From positions 186,001 through 250,000 of the forward strand of contig JAHBUL010000002.1 of NCBI GenBank assembly GCA_019638085.1: a stretch of 64,000 bases of DNA, in the 5' to 3' direction. Origin of the DNA: Flavobacteriales bacterium. GTDB taxonomy: Bacteria > Bacteroidota > Bacteroidia > Flavobacteriales_F > PHOS-HE28. The notes under the pieces are model-generated. The model ran no database searches and was not told where the DNA came from. It was given only the letters and a program-made list of their open reading frames with translations. Position 1 is the first letter of the stretch. Each line of letters starts with the position of its first letter. Both the position numbers and the translations under genes were made by a program. Below, piece after piece: positions 4,504-32,387 of this stretch.

Positions 4504-6252
4504 CTAGTCCGCGAACTGCAGCTCGTACAGCTTCCTGTAAGCACCGTTCTTCGCCAGTAATTGCTGATGCGATCCCTGCTCAATGATCCGTCCCTCGCCC
4601 ACCACCAGGATCCTGTCGGCTTTCTGGATGGTGCTGAGCCGGTGCGCTATAACTATGCTGGTGCGTCCCTCCGTGATCTTCTCCGTCGCTCGTTGGATCA
4701 ACTGCTCGCTCATGCTGTCCACGCTGCTGGTGGCCTCGTCCAGCACCAGCACCTTGGGTGCATTGACGTAGGCGCGGATGAACGCGAGCAGCTGCCGTTG
4801 ACCCACGCTTAGGATCGCGCCACGCTCCCGAACGCTCGTATCATAGCCTTCGGGCAATTGCATGATGAAGTCATGTGCGCCAACCGCTTTTGCCGCCGCC
4901 ATCACTTCCTCACGCGTAATACGCTCGTCGTTCAAGGTGATGTTGTTGTGTACCGTGTCGCTGAAGAGGAACACATCCTGCAGTACCACCGAGATGCTCT
5001 TGCGCAACTCATCCAAGCGATAGTCGCGGATGTCATTCCCGTCCACCAACACCTTGCCCTTTTGGTATTCATAAGCCCGGCTCAATACGTTCACGATACT
5101 GCTTTTGCCGCTGCCGGTGGCGCCCACCAAGGCGATCATCTCTCCGGCCTTGGCCGAGAAGCTGATGTCCTTCAGCACATATTCCTCATCCACATAGGCC
5201 AACCATAGGTTGCGGAACTCGATGTCGCCTTTCACATCCGCCGTGCTCATGGTGCCGCTCTCGTCCATACCGGCCTCCGTATCCAGTACGGCAAATACGC
5301 GCTCACTACCCACCATGCCCATCTGCAATACATTGAAGCGGTCGGCCAGTTGGCGGATCGGGCGGTAAAGCATGTTGATGAACTGGATGTAGGCGATCAG
5401 TTCACCGAAAGTGGCCACTCCCTTCAGCACATCGCCAACGCCCCACCAGATGAGGAACGCGAGCGATACTGCACTGAGCACCTCCACCACCGGAAAAAAC
5501 ACCGAGTAGGCGAACACCGAGCGGATGTGGGCTCCCCGGTGTTCCCGGTTGATCTGTTTGAACTTCTCGTACTCCTGCTTCTCCCGGCCGAAGAGCTGAA
5601 CGATGGCCATCCCTTGGATGTGTTCCTGCACGAAGGCATTCAGCTTCGAGACCTGGTTGCGCACTTGCTGGAAGCTCTTCTGGATCGCATTCTTGAAAAT
5701 GTTCGTGGCCCATAACAGCAGCGGGATCGGCACCATGCTCCATAGCGCGAGTTCCCAGTTATACACGAACATCACTACCACAACCACCGTGAGTTTCAGG
5801 ATGTCGCCCATGATCATCAACAGACCTTGGGAGAAGATCTGTTCGATGGTCTCTATATCGCTTACGACCCGGGTGACCAAGGTGCCGATCGGGGTCCGGT
5901 CGAAGTAGCGCATGCGGAAACCGGTGATCTTGGCGAAGAGTTGCTGGCGCAGGTCGAAGGTGACGGTCTGCCCCAACCAACTGGTCCAATAGGCCTGGAA
6001 GAACTGCACGCCGGCTTCCACGATCAGCAGGCCCACCACCACGGCCATGATCAGGTAGAGCCCCTGCAGATCACCCTTGGCAGCGTAGTCGTCGATCATT
6101 ACGGCCATCAGCACGGGGCGGATCACCGCTACCAGCGACAGGAAGATGGTGAGCGCGAACGTGATCCAGAAGAGCCTACGGTAGGGATGCACGAAACGCA
6201 TCACCCGCCGGAAAAGCCCCACATCGAACGCCGTGCCCTTCGTGCCGCTCAT
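4504..6252 (-). CDS. ABC exporter, fused permease and ATPase (MsbA/MdlB-like)
   Basis: This half-transporter should act as a dimer in the inner membrane and export a lipid, peptide or drug-like substrate powered by ATP. The 582-residue protein has an N-terminal type-1 exporter membrane domain with six helices (about residues 20-310). The nucleotide-binding domain contains Walker A GATGSGKSS, signature LSVGQ, Walker B VLVLDEATSSVD and the switch histidine in IVIAHRLST. LSVGQ instead of LSGGQ is a variant I know from Bacteroidota homologues. Its start overlaps the end of truA by 4 bases, so the two are translationally coupled. Substrate cannot be inferred. Confidence 0.9.
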   Translation of the reverse strand: MSGTKGTAFDVGLFRRVMRFVHPYRRLFWITFALTIFLSLVAVIRPVLMAVMIDDYAAKGDLQGLYLIMAVVVGLLIVEAGVQFFQAYWTSWLGQTVTFDLRQQLFAKITGFRMRYFDRTPIGTLVTRVVSDIETIEQIFSQGLLMIMGDILKLTVVVVVMFVYNWELALWSMVPIPLLLWATNIFKNAIQKSFQQVRNQVSKLNAFVQEHIQGMAIVQLFGREKQEYEKFKQINREHRGAHIRSVFAYSVFFPVVEVLSAVSLAFLIWWGVGDVLKGVATFGELIAYIQFINMLYRPIRQLADRFNVLQMGMVGSERVFAVLDTEAGMDESGTMSTADVKGDIEFRNLWLAYVDEEYVLKDISFSAKAGEMIALVGATGSGKSSIVNVLSRAYEYQKGKVLVDGNDIRDYRLDELRKSISVVLQDVFLFSDTVHNNITLNDERITREEVMAAAKAVGAHDFIMQLPEGYDTSVRERGAILSVGQRQLLAFIRAYVNAPKVLVLDEATSSVDSMSEQLIQRATEKITEGRTSIVIAHRLSTIQKADRILVVGEGRIIEQGSHQQLLAKNGAYRKLYELQFAD

Positions 6253-8471: not shown

Positions 8472-10532
8472 ATGTCCGAGAAAGCCGCACTTGAGGCCCT
8501 TAAGCTCCCCGAGCTTAAGGAGATCGCCAAGCATTTGAAACTGAAAAAATACGAGACCCTGAAAAAGCAGGATCTCATCGCCAAGATCTTGGATGCTGCA
8601 AAGGCACAAGAGGCCCCAAAGGCCGCTGATAACCGGGATACGGACGCCATTGCCGAACTCGCCGTGGAGGATGAAACTCCTGATCCAGAGCCGGACCCCG
8701 AGCCGGAAGATGACGATGACGACGACGATGATGACAATGGGGATGACGATGACGACGATGATGATGATGACGATGACGACAACGGAATTGACGACGATGG
8801 GGACGACGATGATGATGATGAGAACGGCGTGAGTAAACCCTCTCCAGAGCGCCTTTCCGGAAAGGGAATTGAGCCCACGGGTATGTCAGCCAAGGAAGCT
8901 CGTGCAACTTCACCGACACCGGAAAAGGATGCACAGGAACGGGTGCAACGTCACGACGAACGCCCCAACGATACGAATGACCGCTTCGACCCCCGCGACC
9001 GCCAACAACGGAGAGGACGTCGCCCTCGTGTGGAAGTCGATCGCCCCAAGGAAGATCAGTCAGACACGGGTTCGAGGGATGCGAGTGCCACAACTGCCCC
9101 TGCTGCTCCTGAGTTGGACCGTGCAAACGAAAAACGTGAGGACCATCGCCACCGGAAGGACAGTACCAAGGACCAGCAAGCTGGAAAAGGTGATGGCCAC
9201 GATCAACGTGACCGGCGCGACCAAGGCAAACCCCAAGGAAGGGATCAGCAACGGAACGAGCCGCGCGGGCAAAGTGACCAGCGTGGTGGCCAAGACTTAC
9301 GCGGCTCCGGTGATCAGCGTTCAGGCGACCATCGTTCCGGAGATCAACGGTCAACTGACCAAGGGCGTCGGGGCGATCAGCGCCAGCAGCAACAGCAGCA
9401 GCAGCAACCCGCTTCGTTCGATGCCTTCATCGAGACGGACGGTGTGCTGGAGATCATGCCCGAGGGCTATGGTTTTCTCCGCAGCAGCGACTACAACTAC
9501 CTGCCTTCGCCGGATGATGTATATGTGACACAGCAGCAGATCAAGCAAGCCGGCCTGAAGTTGGGTGATACCGTCCATGGCTATGTGCGCCCTCCTCGCG
9601 ATCAGGACAAGTACTTCCCCTTGGTGAAGGTGGAAAGCATCAACGGCCGCGATCCCGAATGGGCCCGCGATCGTGTGCCTTTCAAATTCCTGACGCCGCT
9701 GTTCCCGGACGAGAAGTTCGACCTTACGAGTAAGGAGAGCACGTTGAGTACACGCGTCCTGGATCTGTTCGCCCCCATCGGTAAAGGGCAGCGCGGTTTG
9801 ATCGTGGCACAGCCAAAGACGGGTAAGACCATTCTGCTGAAGGATGTGGCCAATGCCATTGCCGCAAACCATCCGGAAGTATACCTGATCGTATTGCTGA
9901 TCGACGAACGCCCCGAAGAGGTGACGGACATGCAACGGAGCGTGAATGGCGAAGTGATCGCCAGCACCTTCGATGAGCCTGCAACGCGACACGTGGCCGT
10001 GGCCACCATGGTGTTGGAGAAGGCCAAGTGCCTTACCGAATGCGGACACGATGTGGTGATCCTCTTGGATTCCATCACTCGCTTGGCCCGCGCCTATAAC
10101 ACCGTGCAGCCCGCCAGTGGTAAGATCCTCTCCGGTGGTGTGGACGCCAACGCCTTGCAAAAGCCGAAGCGCTTCTTTGGTGCTGCGCGCAAGATCGAGA
10201 ACGGAGGCTCGCTCACCATTCTCGCCACTGCGCTGACCGAAACGGGAAGCAAGATGGACGAGGTGATCTTTGAGGAGTTCAAGGGAACCGGTAACATGGA
10301 ACTACAGCTCGACCGGAAGATCAGCAACCGCCGCATTTTCCCCGCTATCGATATCCTCGCCAGTGGTACCCGTCGTGATGACCTGCTCCACCACAAGGAT
10401 GTACTGCAACGCACCTGGATCCTACGCAAGCACTTGGCGGATATGACGCCGGTGGAGGCGATGGAATTCGTGAAAGGCCGCATGGAAGGTACCAAGAGCA
10501 ACGAGGAGTTCCTTGTTTCCATGAACGGTTGA
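8472..10532 (+). CDS. rho: Transcription termination factor Rho with long disordered insert
   Basis: Rho is the hexameric RNA helicase that ends transcription at unstructured, untranslated RNA. The 686-residue protein has the N-terminal helical Rho_N domain (about 1-45), a cold-shock-type RNA-binding domain from about 316 ([14 protein letters not shown]), and the RecA-like ATPase with P-loop AQPKTGKT (about 446-453), LLIDERPEE and the Q-loop region [14 protein letters not shown]. Between Rho_N and the RNA-binding fold lie about 270 low-complexity residues: an aspartate run at about 80-116, then a charged R/D/Q/G-rich tract ending in eight glutamines. E. coli Rho, at 419 residues, lacks this. 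Bacteroidota Rho proteins commonly carry such inserts. The gene precedes DUF4199 by 13 bases. Confidence 0.97.
8709..8819 (+). repeat. Poly-aspartate coding microsatellite in rho
   Basis: Repeated GAC/GAT codons encode 37 residues that are nearly all aspartate, broken only by NG, NGI and G. Synonymous codons are mixed, so the DNA is not a pure trinucleotide run. This argues that selection holds the acidic protein tract rather than recent slippage. Confidence 0.85.
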
Positions 10533-11142: not shown

Positions 11143-12510
11143 TCAAGCGATGAACGCTTCGGCCAGCGCAGCCAGATCGAGCCCACCGAAATTGCCGCTG
11201 CTCATCATCAGCAGCACCCCTTCCTCTCCCATACCCTCTCGCACGGCACCCATCAATGCGATCGGCGTAGTAAGGACTTTCAGGTCATCCCGTTGAAAGG
11301 CGTTGCGGATACGCTCCGCAGGCACGGCTGGCAAACGCTTCAGCTGCACGGCATGCGGGTCATAGAACACCAAGGCATTGTCGGCACCGTCCAAGCATCC
11401 GGCGTACTGGTCGAGGAAATGCTCGCTGAGGCTGCTGAAGGTGTGCAGTTCCATGCACGCGGTGAGCTTGCGGCCCGGGAACTGCTCACGGACGGCATCC
11501 ACGGTGGCTTGCAGTTTACTGGGCGAGTGGGCAAAATCCTTGTACACCACCTTCCCATCGTGCTCCGCTAGTTTCTCCAAACGCTTGGCTGCCCCGGTGA
11601 AGCTGGTGATCGCCGCATGGAATTCGCGGTCGCCGATGCCGAGCTGGTGGCACACATGCCGCGCCCCCTCCATGTTCATCAGGTTGTGCTTGCCGAAGAC
11701 CTTCAGTTGCACTTCACCTTGTGGGGTCACCAACGATGTGATCCCATGGCGGATCACGTGTGCAGGCACGCCGTAGGGAACGTGGGCCACATCCTTTCTC
11801 CCCTTTCGTTCCTCTGCCAAGCGGACCACCTCCGGGTCCTCGGCGCAGTAGATCAACTTACCGCCCGGCTCGATCAGGTCAATGAAGGTGGCGAACTGCT
11901 CAACGTAACTCTCGAAGGTCTTGAAGACGTTGATATGATCCCATGCGATACCACTGATCAACGCGATATTCGGCTTATACAGGTGGAATTTAGGTACCGG
12001 CTCCAAGGTGGAAGCGAGGTACTCATCCCCCTCGATCACGGCCACGGAGCTCTTCGCCCCAAGCCGCACCATGCAATCGAAGCCCTCCAGCTGTGCTCCC
12101 ACGAGGTAATCAAAATCAGCACCACTTGCGCGCAGCACATGCACGATCATCGATGTGATGGTGGTCTTGCCGTGGCTGCCACCGATCACCACCCGGGTCT
12201 TGTTCCGCGTTTGCTCGAGGAAGTAGGCCGGGTAGCTGAACACCGGTATACCCAGCTCCTGCGCACGTAGCAGCTCGGGATTATCGGCCCGGGCGTGCAT
12301 ACCGAGGATCACCGCATCCAGCTTGGAGGTAATGTCCTCCGGGTGCCAACCCAACTGGTTCGGCAGCAGGCCAAGGTTCTCCAAGCGGCTGCGGCTGGGT
12401 TCGAAGATCTCATCGTCACTACCGCTTACCTCAAAACCCTGCTGGTTGAGAGCGATGGCGAGGTTGTGCATGGCGCTGCCGCCGATGGCGATGAAGTGGA
12501 CGCGTTTCAT
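11143..12510 (-). CDS. mpl: Mur ligase family protein (Mpl-like peptidoglycan ligase)
   Basis: A cytoplasmic ATP-dependent ligase of cell-wall metabolism, 455 residues. The N-terminal Rossmann domain begins HFIAIGGSAMHNLA and contains GSDDEIF, as in MurC and Mpl. The central domain has the Mur P-loop GGSHGKTT near residue 110, followed by VIEGDEYLAS and the FAHSPSKLQATVDAVREQF segment of the C-terminal domain. IAIGGSAMHNLA and GSHGKTT fit Mpl, which reattaches recycled tripeptide to UDP-MurNAc, slightly better than MurC, but the Bacteroidota version may differ in substrate. It stands alone, divergent from the channel gene across 336 bases. Confidence 0.8.
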   Translation of the reverse strand: MKRVHFIAIGGSAMHNLAIALNQQGFEVSGSDDEIFEPSRSRLENLGLLPNQLGWHPEDITSKLDAVILGMHARADNPELLRAQELGIPVFSYPAYFLEQTRNKTRVVIGGSHGKTTITSMIVHVLRASGADFDYLVGAQLEGFDCMVRLGAKSSVAVIEGDEYLASTLEPVPKFHLYKPNIALISGIAWDHINVFKTFESYVEQFATFIDLIEPGGKLIYCAEDPEVVRLAEERKGRKDVAHVPYGVPAHVIRHGITSLVTPQGEVQLKVFGKHNLMNMEGARHVCHQLGIGDREFHAAITSFTGAAKRLEKLAEHDGKVVYKDFAHSPSKLQATVDAVREQFPGRKLTACMELHTFSSLSEHFLDQYAGCLDGADNALVFYDPHAVQLKRLPAVPAERIRNAFQRDDLKVLTTPIALMGAVREGMGEEGVLLMMSSGNFGGLDLAALAEAFIA

Positions 12511-12846: not shown

Positions 12847-13923
12847 ATGGCCTCGATGACGTTGCGCTCCTTTCATCTTATTCTTCTTTCCCTTTGGCTT
12901 GCAGTTGGCGTCCATGCCGCAGTGGATACCACCGCACTGCGCGTTGGCATCGCAGGCACGGCTCCGTTCATCACTGCAGATACGAATGGCATATCCATGG
13001 ATATCTGGGACCGCATTGCACTCCAGTTGGATGCGCGCTACACTACGGAAGTCTTCACTTCCGTTTCCGATGCCTTGCAGGCGTTGGAGGCCGGGCATCT
13101 TGATGCTGTCGTCGGTCCAGTGAGCATTAGCTCCGACCGGGTGGCACGCATGGATATGACACAACCATATTTCCGGAGCAGCCTATCCATTCTTTCGCGC
13201 AGCGATTCATTGAGCGCATGGGAACGTATCGAGCCCTTTTTCAGCATCAGGCTCTTGTATGCCTTAGCGCTGTTCCTCTTCATCCTGGCCTTTGTGGGAA
13301 CGTTGCTTTGGCTTGCGGAAAGGAAGGCATCGCCGGAACAGTTCCCCAATGAACCTGCCCGGGGGATCGGGAACGGCATGTGGTGCGCCATTGTTACCAT
13401 GAGCACCACGGGATATGGTGACATTGCACCGGTAACCCTGGCCGGGCGCATCATTGCCGGAAGTTGGATGGTGATCTCCATCATCTTCGCCACATCGATG
13501 GTAGCCGGCATCGCCAGTACGCTCACGTTGACCGGCCTTGGGCATACGGTGATCGATACAGCGGATAAGTTTCCGGGTAAGCGGATAGCCGTGCTGGACG
13601 GATCACCAGCGGAGGACTTAGTTGAAGATCATGGAGGCACCGTGGTGGCGAAGGTCAATCTGGATTCATGCTATGCTGCGTTATTGGACAAGCGTGTGGA
13701 CGCGATCGTGTTCGATCGGCCGCAACTGCTTTACTTTTTCAACAAGAAGCAGGAAAAGGGCATGGCCGTTGCACCTGCGCAATACCAACCCCAGGGTTAT
13801 GGCTTTGCCTTCCGAATGGATTCGCCCTACATGCCCGAAGTGGATGTGGAGCTGCTGCGCATGAAAGAGGATGGTGATCTGGACAAGATCCTGAAGGATT
13901 GGCTGGGGGAGGATGCCAAGTAG
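12847..13923 (+). CDS. GluR0-like ligand-gated potassium channel
   Basis: The 358-residue product has the architecture of a prokaryotic ionotropic glutamate receptor. A signal peptide (1-24) is followed by the first lobe of a periplasmic amino-acid-binding-type domain (about 27-120, with ARMDMTQPYF). Then come TM1 (about 134-157), a re-entrant pore loop with the potassium selectivity filter TTGYGD (187-192), TM2 (about 202-225) and the second ligand-binding lobe (about 235-355). Splitting of the binding domain by a TM-pore-TM unit is diagnostic of this family. Ligand is unknown. Start ATG 12847 is preferred over an upstream GTG at 12817 because the signal peptide is better placed; ATG 12856 is also possible. 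It stands alone, upstream of an MBL hydrolase. Confidence 0.88.
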   Translation: MASMTLRSFHLILLSLWLAVGVHAAVDTTALRVGIAGTAPFITADTNGISMDIWDRIALQLDARYTTEVFTSVSDALQALEAGHLDAVVGPVSISSDRVARMDMTQPYFRSSLSILSRSDSLSAWERIEPFFSIRLLYALALFLFILAFVGTLLWLAERKASPEQFPNEPARGIGNGMWCAIVTMSTTGYGDIAPVTLAGRIIAGSWMVISIIFATSMVAGIASTLTLTGLGHTVIDTADKFPGKRIAVLDGSPAEDLVEDHGGTVVAKVNLDSCYAALLDKRVDAIVFDRPQLLYFFNKKQEKGMAVAPAQYQPQGYGFAFRMDSPYMPEVDVELLRMKEDGDLDKILKDWLGEDAK

Positions 13924-30956: not shown

Positions 30957-32387
30957 TCATGCAGCCCCGAGCTTTTCCTTATCGGTGAAGAGTTTTTCAC
31001 CTTGGGTGTGGGCCACTACGGAGCAAACAGCCGCATCACCCGTAACGTTCACTACGGTCCGCATCATGTCCAACGGCCGGTCAATGGTGAAGACGATGGC
31101 CACCCAGGCGGGATCAAGCCCAAGTGAGGACAGGACCACCACCATCAGCATCATGCCGCCGCTGGGGATGGCGGCCGCACCGATGCTGGCCAGGGTGGCC
31201 GTGAGCACGATGGTGAGCTGTTGCCCCAAGGTGAGGTCCACCATGTGGAGTTGGGCCAGGAAGATCACTGCTACGGCCTGCATCAGGCTGGTGCCATCCA
31301 TGTTCACCGTGGCACCCACCGGTAGCACGAAACCCGCAGTGGCCTTGCTCACGCCGATGTTCTGCTCCACACAGCGGATGGTGGCCGGCAAGGTGGCCGC
31401 ACTGCTGCTGGTACTAAAAGCGAGCAATTGGGCCGGACTGATGGCCCGCAGGAAATCCCGGTACACGTTCCGCCGCATCAGCAGGCTCATCATCGTGGGA
31501 TAGATCACCAACACGATCAGGGCCAGCCCCAGCACGATCGTGATCGCATAGCCTACAAGGCCCTTGAACAGTTCACCCACTGCAGCGATATCATCCCCGG
31601 CCATGCGCGCCACCACACCGGTCATCAGCGCGAAAACGAACCAAGGGGCGGCCAGCATGATCACGTCCACCATTTTGATGAACACTTCGTTGCAGGCGTT
31701 CATAAAGGCGTTCAGTGGCCCGGCATGTACGGGTTTCACCAAGAGCAACATGATGCCGAAGAAGATGGCGAAGAAGATCACCTGCAACATCCGCATCTCG
31801 TTCAAGCTCTCGAAAATGTTGTCCGGCACCAGGTCCACCAGGAACTGGAGCGGGCCGGCCTCGCCGCGTTGCTTGGCGGTTTTCCCTGCGGCCTCGCTCC
31901 ATTCGTTGGGCTGGAGTGTGCCGCGCACGGCCGCGATGGAGTCCCGCAAGGCAGCATGCTCGGGCTGGCAGGCCAGGCACTTTCCGTCCAAGGGTGTCTG
32001 CACCTCCGCGGTCTCCTGCACCCACAGCTCGTAGTTGATCCGGTTGGCCGTGCGCTTCCCGTCGTCCCCCCATTCTCCCGGCTTCAAGGTGTTCACCAGC
32101 AACAGCCCCAAGGAAACGGCCATGATGGTGGTGAGCAGGTACAGGCCCAATGTGCGTGCACCGAGCGAGCCCAAGCGCCTTACCTCGCCCATACCGGCCA
32201 CCCCGCTGATGATGCTGAAGAGCACCAAAGGCACGGCCACCAATTTCAGCATCTTGATGAAGATCTTCCCGAAAGGGTCGATCCAGTCCAGATTGAACCG
32301 GCTCCAGCCCATGAAGCTGCTGAGCAGGGCCCATGCAACGCCAGCAGCCATACCAATGAGGATGCGGACGTGAAGAGGTAATTTCAT
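30957..32387 (-). CDS. Dicarboxylate/amino acid:cation symporter (DAACS family)
   Basis: A 476-residue secondary transporter of the glutamate/aspartate/dicarboxylate family (GltP, DctA). The serine-rich re-entrant loop STSSSAATLPAT and the substrate/sodium-binding NMDGTSLMQ are both present at the expected spacing. An insertion of about 80 residues after the third or fourth helix, containing CLACQPEH, makes it longer than E. coli GltP (437). The inserted loop should face the periplasm. It lies 83 bases upstream of the asmA-ompA pair's start but its own transcript probably ends at 30957. Substrate cannot be fixed. Confidence 0.88.
   Translation of the reverse strand: MKLPLHVRILIGMAAGVAWALLSSFMGWSRFNLDWIDPFGKIFIKMLKLVAVPLVLFSIISGVAGMGEVRRLGSLGARTLGLYLLTTIMAVSLGLLLVNTLKPGEWGDDGKRTANRINYELWVQETAEVQTPLDGKCLACQPEHAALRDSIAAVRGTLQPNEWSEAAGKTAKQRGEAGPLQFLVDLVPDNIFESLNEMRMLQVIFFAIFFGIMLLLVKPVHAGPLNAFMNACNEVFIKMVDVIMLAAPWFVFALMTGVVARMAGDDIAAVGELFKGLVGYAITIVLGLALIVLVIYPTMMSLLMRRNVYRDFLRAISPAQLLAFSTSSSAATLPATIRCVEQNIGVSKATAGFVLPVGATVNMDGTSLMQAVAVIFLAQLHMVDLTLGQQLTIVLTATLASIGAAAIPSGGMMLMVVVLSSLGLDPAWVAIVFTIDRPLDMMRTVVNVTGDAAVCSVVAHTQGEKLFTDKEKLGAA

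Follow-up and report, generated by a model that had tools for sequence, protein, structure and literature searches.

The open reading frame at 12847–13923 of the window (the whole stretch of Flavobacteriales DNA analysed here, 64,000 nucleotides) encodes, by sequence and predicted structure, a GluR0-type ("Group 1") prokaryotic glutamate-receptor potassium channel. The frame lies on the forward strand, opens with an ATG at 12847, ends with a stop codon at 13923 and specifies 358 residues; a GTG 30 bases upstream of the ATG is an alternative start that would add ten more. The whole of the evidence is best explained by a subunit of a tetrameric, inner-membrane, amino-acid-gated K+ channel of the GluR0 type, a reading that we hold to be highly probable. 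The features of the gene and of its two neighbours are as follows.

11143–12510, reverse strand: divergent neighbour, Mur-ligase family, MurC/Mpl-like (below both curated cut-offs)
12847–13923, forward strand: GluR0-type potassium channel gene, 358 aa (sequence, Pfam, AlphaFold2 model, structure match)
12847–12918, forward strand: probable signal peptide, residues 1–24 (VHA/AV cleavage read by eye)
12922–13206, forward strand: S1 lobe of the ligand-binding domain, residues 26–120 (Pfam, alignment, AlphaFold2 model, structure match)
13138–13140, forward strand: R98, equivalent of the alpha-carboxylate Arg, GluA2 R485 (alignment; role of the S1 Arg as described in PMC2950845)
13246–13320, forward strand: first membrane helix M1, residues 134–158 (Pfam, AlphaFold2 model)
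13354–13404, forward strand: pore helix, residues 170–186 (AlphaFold2 model)
13405–13422, forward strand: selectivity filter TTGYGD, residues 187–192 (sequence, alignment, AlphaFold2 model)
13438–13536, forward strand: second membrane helix M2, residues 198–230 (Pfam, AlphaFold2 model)
13567–13911, forward strand: S2 lobe of the ligand-binding domain, residues 241–355 (Pfam, alignment, AlphaFold2 model, structure match)
13606–13608, forward strand: P254, equivalent of GluA2 T655, a side-chain specificity position (alignment)
13714–13716, forward strand: D290, equivalent of the alpha-amino Asp/Glu, GluA2 705 (alignment; role of the S2 Asp as described in PMC2950845)
13981–14844, forward strand: metallo-beta-lactamase-fold hydrolase, 57 bp downstream on the same strand, best NCBIfam match YtnP lactonase (below cut-off)

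Three Pfam families match the protein above their cut-offs: SBP_bac_3, spread over residues 31–355 (E 7e-18), and, both falling inside that stretch, Ion_trans_2 at residues 145–226 (E 3e-11) and Lig_chan at residues 143–235 (E 2e-10). The binding domain is thus split into two segments, S1 and S2. An AlphaFold2 model of a single chain, built from an alignment of 32 rows (A1) that holds 31 relatives out of 41 extracted proteins, has a mean pLDDT of 89.7 and agrees with this arrangement: helices at 134–158 and 198–230, which the Ion_trans_2 match overlaps, stand on either side of a helix at 170–186, TTGYGD follows the latter directly and forms the pore loop, and everything outside M1, pore and M2 folds into a two-lobed binding core. 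The putative signal-peptide region is modelled as a helix (residues 7–21, pLDDT 60–74). The initial annotation had described a 358-residue protein whose binding domain is interrupted by two membrane segments and a pore bearing TTGYGD; the Pfam domains and the model bear this out, including the position of the motif in the pore loop.

Structural comparison places the protein next to the GluR0 family, as had been proposed. The first match by VIA-align is the GluR0 core with L-glutamate (1ii5; Z 28.3, rmsd 2.2, 218 of 221 aligned), and the second, the NpGluR0 core (2pyy; Z 27.4, rmsd 2.5, 215 aligned), is within 1 of it and hence tied. The 50 Foldseek matches listed are all AMPA-receptor chains, and the matches to chains comprising ligand-binding and transmembrane domains span 366–378 columns. 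A phmmer search against solved structures returned Synechocystis GluR0 at the top (E 1.6e-21), then GlnPQ, NpGluR0 and plant GLR3.4, the last aligned through S1, pore and S2 (E 7e-20). Identity to 11 aligned members of its own subclade ranges from 45 to 74%; together with a dN/dS of about 0.13 against the nearest relative (below), this conservation rules out a chance open reading frame.

The filter carries a K+ selectivity signature in variant form. The motif had initially been called canonical, but the canonical signature of K+ channels is TXXTVGYG (PMC6385376), so that TTGYGD is a T-for-V variant rather than an exact match. Among the 41 extracted proteins 13 have TTGYGD and 27 have TVGYGD; a K+ channel signature is therefore present in 40 of 41 aligned rows. 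The 13 TTGYGD proteins form one clade (98/99), every member of which carries the variant, and the filter letter switches once on the tree. Several branches of this tree are long and GluR0 is placed in it by its binding core alone; a second tree built without the long rows gave weak support inside the TTGYGD clade. Thr at this place is natural in other K+ channels too: 29 comparison loci from the phylum Bacteroidota, eight of which had no match to the pattern used, gave 21 readable filters, and four of these, all from one family (f14), have T at the V position. A Thr/Val substitution is also mentioned for two-pore channels (PMC6163359). Selectivity or inactivation could differ as a result of the substitution.

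Some relatives are altered in the pore region. One protein (L047, 1447–2463, from G324) has IGSSDGYP in place of the filter and so has lost the K+ signature. Two distant relatives have stop codons at or next to the equivalent of the pore-helix Trp, W179 (TAG in L007 of G017, TGA in L040 of G426); these are either pseudogenes or assembly errors.

SBP_bac_3 is the strongest Pfam match and the best NCBIfam match is GlnH (below cut-off), as would be expected of a solute-binding protein of an ABC importer that happens to bear a membrane anchor. We regard this as scarcely credible. Family 3 binding proteins of such importers are soluble or lipid-anchored and are encoded beside permease and ATPase genes; here a pore loop is inserted into the binding domain in the model, the K+ signature holds across nearly all the aligned rows, homology (Pfam, alignment) extends over the pore, and the adjoining genes encode a Mur ligase and a hydrolase, neither an amino-acid permease nor an ATPase. 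No other protein of the genome matches SBP_bac_3 above cut-off, one further match lying below it, so the channel is no spare receptor for a transporter of this family. A lack of transporter genes nearby had been noted before: this is accurate for the adjacent genes, but the window does hold a Pfam ABC transporter at 4504–6252 and a GltP-like dicarboxylate/glutamate symporter (below cut-off) at 30957–32387.

The GluR0-type channel gene stands alone in its gap, in agreement with its earlier description as free-standing. The Mur-ligase gene was found, at the threshold used, in 37 of the 43 genus genomes examined, and in 29 of these 37 it shares a contig with the hydrolase gene and is transcribed away from it. 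The gap between the two is 76–443 bp in 24 of the 29 genomes and larger in five: 716 bp in G019, 1470 bp in the window, 1664 bp in G031, 1960 bp in G012 and 2179 bp in G010. A search detected no channel in G019, G031, G012 or G010, and other open reading frames occupy the three larger of their gaps. The gap thus differs in size and content, and the channel is a lone gene in a variable space between two divergent genes. Because Mur ligase and hydrolase lie adjacent and divergent without a channel in most relatives, a peptidoglycan-peptide ligand, considered on account of the Mur-ligase neighbour, was rejected. The hydrolase follows the channel on the same strand at about 57–130 bp in five of the seven carriers of the genus (G000, G024, G017, G018 and G030), the two genes being on different contigs in G032 and G020. 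It was nonetheless rejected as a conserved partner: a metallo-beta-lactamase-fold gene is present in 40 of the 43 genus genomes examined, so adjacency reflects position, not partnership.

The loci read in Flavobacterium, Chitinophagaceae and G348 have no such gene in common. Among what adjoins the channel there are a Kv-type channel, CrcB/DUF190 and an MscS-type channel, a different kind at each locus, which we take as anecdote; in two relatives the distance from the GluR0-type gene to the other ion channel is about 1 kb or less (L014, 6262–6999, Kv-type, in Flavobacterium antarcticum; L019, 2670–3437, MscS-type, in G348). Elsewhere in the window, 8472–10532 encodes a Rho factor with a long low-complexity insertion, Asp-rich and Gln/Arg/Gly-rich, between the N-terminal domain and the core.

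The channel had been thought uncommon in Bacteroidota. Relatives are in fact found in 31 of 395 genomes of the phylum (at E up to 1e-20) and in seven of 45 genomes of the window's genus (its own genome counted in both), being absent from the other 38; the order-level search covered the same 45 genomes. A scan of named genomes gave eight loci, spread over MAGs of Flavobacteriales and Chitinophagaceae and three Flavobacterium strains; three of the eight loci belong to genus genomes already counted. The 41 proteins extracted from these searches, with starts set by rule and some of them short, leave out a second copy in G348 and a match in G162 that had no locus.

Against the nearest relative (G024) dN is 0.19 and dS, near saturation, is 1.49, giving a dN/dS of about 0.13; against G020 the ratio is 0.34. 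These values indicate purifying selection. GC3 is 0.65 both in the channel gene and in the Rho gene and is higher in the two neighbours (0.76 and 0.74), and thus gives no clear compositional sign of recent import. On the tree the Flavobacterium rows fall among those of the genus; transfer between the two is not claimed, since a tree with the genus as one clade passes the AU test (p 0.13).

Bacterial members of the family described by Ger et al. conserve totally an Arg in S1, for the alpha-carboxylate, and an Asp in S2, for the alpha-amino group (PMC2950845). The alignment identifies these residues, which hold the backbone of an amino acid, as R98 and D290: R98 is kept in 40 of 41 rows (12 of 13 in the TTGYGD subclade) and D290 in 39 of 41 (13 of 13). 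From the sequence we conclude that the ligand should be an alpha-amino acid. Which one is a matter for the side-chain positions. Alignment to GluR0 and NpGluR0 gives G252, P254 and Y318 at what we take, by motif matching, to be positions 653, 655 and 732 of GluA2. Specificity has been assigned to positions 653, 655, 704, 708 and 732 in this numbering; in animal receptors Thr at 655 goes with glutamate, and a hydrophobic residue or Pro with glycine or D-serine, with exceptions in ctenophores (PMC12226733).

The signals are mixed: two of the three residues, G252 and Y318, are of the glutamate type and P254 is not. The equivalent of 655 is Thr in both solved bacterial GluR0 cores; Pro stands there in nine of the 13 subclade members versus none of the 28 other rows, and Ser or Thr in one of 13 versus 20 of 28. 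GluR0-type glutamate binders have a hydroxyl and a backbone NH available at this place; P254 lacks both. The initial annotation had left the ligand unassigned, and this caution was well placed: with Thr replaced by Pro, glutamate is not assured. Because the Thr that contacts the side chain is replaced, the ligand is probably held otherwise than glutamate is in GluR0. Even so, there is an appreciable, if smaller than even, chance that the channel is specific for glutamate like that of Synechocystis: its closest solved structure is GluR0 bound to L-glutamate, residues 653 and 732 are of the glutamate type, and the FDRP motif is shared with GluR0, the Arg after its Asp being present in 13 of 13 subclade members. 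Against this stand the Thr of GluR0 and NpGluR0 and the listing of Pro with glycine and D-serine specificity in animals. We propose, tentatively, that the TTGYGD proteins make up a separate kind of GluR0 channel, centred on Bacteroidota, whose gating ligand is not glutamate but another amino acid (glycine, alanine or serine, for example); as this genome holds no other family-3 binding domain over cut-off, the sensing function of that family would survive here only as an ion channel. In one relative (G030; L008, 1486–2565) the frame is intact but the ligand Arg is lost (R98H) and S253 is replaced by Ala (S253A); its product may be ligand-blind or may take another ligand.

For the amino-acid-gated channel a mechanism may be sketched. 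Once the signal peptide is removed, S1 and S2 would form a periplasmic clamshell that binds an amino acid, R98 holding the alpha-carboxylate and D290 the alpha-amino group; closure, by a pull on the short linkers that lead to M1 and M2, would open the pore, whose loop would enter from the cytoplasmic side, and passive K+ flow could then adjust membrane potential, turgor or cell volume. To the domain order, homology, fold, pore-loop position, conserved ligand residues and purifying selection found for the channel itself, analogy with GluR0 would add the tetramer, inverted orientation, gating, K+ selectivity and physiological role. In Synechocystis GluR0 resides in the plasma membrane with its lobes reported outside, an orientation derived from PhoA fusions of which some were not significant; it allows K+-uptake-deficient E. 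coli to grow, for which the binding domains are needed, and under KCl it influences both cell volume and growth (PMC13099474). Glutamate release, tension or cell–cell signalling are suggested there as triggers, none proven.

These observations also bear on a GluR0-shaped channel that is constitutive or opened by tension, whose binding domain would serve for assembly and whose pore would be a passive path for K+ leak or uptake. The genome has a Kup transporter and one further Ion_trans_2 channel, and matches to TrkH and KdpA were not found in it, so that the channel could act as a passive route for K+, though most members of the genus live without the gene. Tension is among the triggers proposed for GluR0, the passages on E. 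coli growth mention no added ligand (PMC13099474), and the relative in G030 has lost R98 with its frame intact. The near-invariance of R98 and D290 in the subclade goes beyond what assembly alone demands, and we think a constitutive or tension-opened channel improbable. Whatever benefit the ligand-gated channel brings appears dispensable, given the absence of the gene from most of the genus and the decay seen in relatives, with TAG at the pore-helix Trp in G017 and both R98H and S253A in G030.

Similar genes occur on phage-like contigs. An IMG/VR scan with the alignment gave 26 loci, and the four that matched across binding core and pore, and were read, are full-length GluR0-type channels (L121, 2950–3960, 264 kb; L122, 3001–3981, 40 kb; L123, 2929–3939, 75 kb; L124, 2875–3888, 363 kb). 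L123 and L124 have the TTGYGD filter and a common order: channel, a Ser-rich protein of 539/559 aa (phrog_6856), a protein of 221/222 aa (DUF2491 by Pfam in L123) and one of 251 aa, for which, in L123, neither a Pfam match in the piece scanned nor a PHROG match was obtained. Genes for HNH endonuclease, QueE, QueD, dCTP deaminase and RIIA in the flanks of L123/L147 and for a DNA methyltransferase in that of L124 point to phages. No phage record matched the L124 or the L121 channel protein over 80% of its length. The four may represent a ligand-gated K+ channel that phages carry and that is linked to envelope stress; no description of phage GluR0-type channels was found in the literature searched. 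The window channel itself had no match among 50,697 phage records. Twenty plasmid records matched (Agrobacterium, Rhizobium, Salmonella and others), with proteins of similar length mostly annotated as transporter substrate-binding proteins; none of the three read (L083, L084, L085) has a K+ filter, though the domain is split.

Among known systems, GluR0 (Slr1257) of Synechocystis PCC 6803, whose pore and topology we take from PMC13099474, shares the S1–M1–P–M2–S2 order, the K+-type filter, the S1 Arg, the S2 Asp and FDRP, and differs in that identity over the binding core is 28% and in the TTGYGD and Pro of the present channel. NpGluR0 of Nostoc punctiforme, compared over its core only, is alike in fold and unlike in its Thr at 655. 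The Group 1 prokaryotic receptors of Ger et al. (2010) have S1 and S2 flanking two transmembrane helices and a pore loop, with a K+ signature (PMC2950845); the channel has these defining features as published. Plant and animal receptors (GLR3.4, GluN1, AMPA receptors) match in sequence across S1, pore and S2, whereas the channel lacks their N-terminal domain and M4 and has a K+ filter. Terms beginning Bacteroid-, Flavobact-, Cytophag- or Chlorob- are absent from the main text of Ger et al. (PMC2950845), and we found no description of the TTGYGD subclade in the open-licence literature searched for prokaryotic or Bacteroidota members and for TTGYGD.

The channel gene is a genuine yet ordinary member of a known family, which it extends, except that P254 gives a sharp prediction about the ligand. 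Glutamate-receptor channels of prokaryotes are relevant to how the ionotropic receptors of animals and plants arose, and the first direct physiological evidence on them was, by its authors' account, that from Synechocystis in 2026 (PMC13099474). Orthologues in named Flavobacterium strains would make ligand choice and role open to study outside the cyanobacteria.
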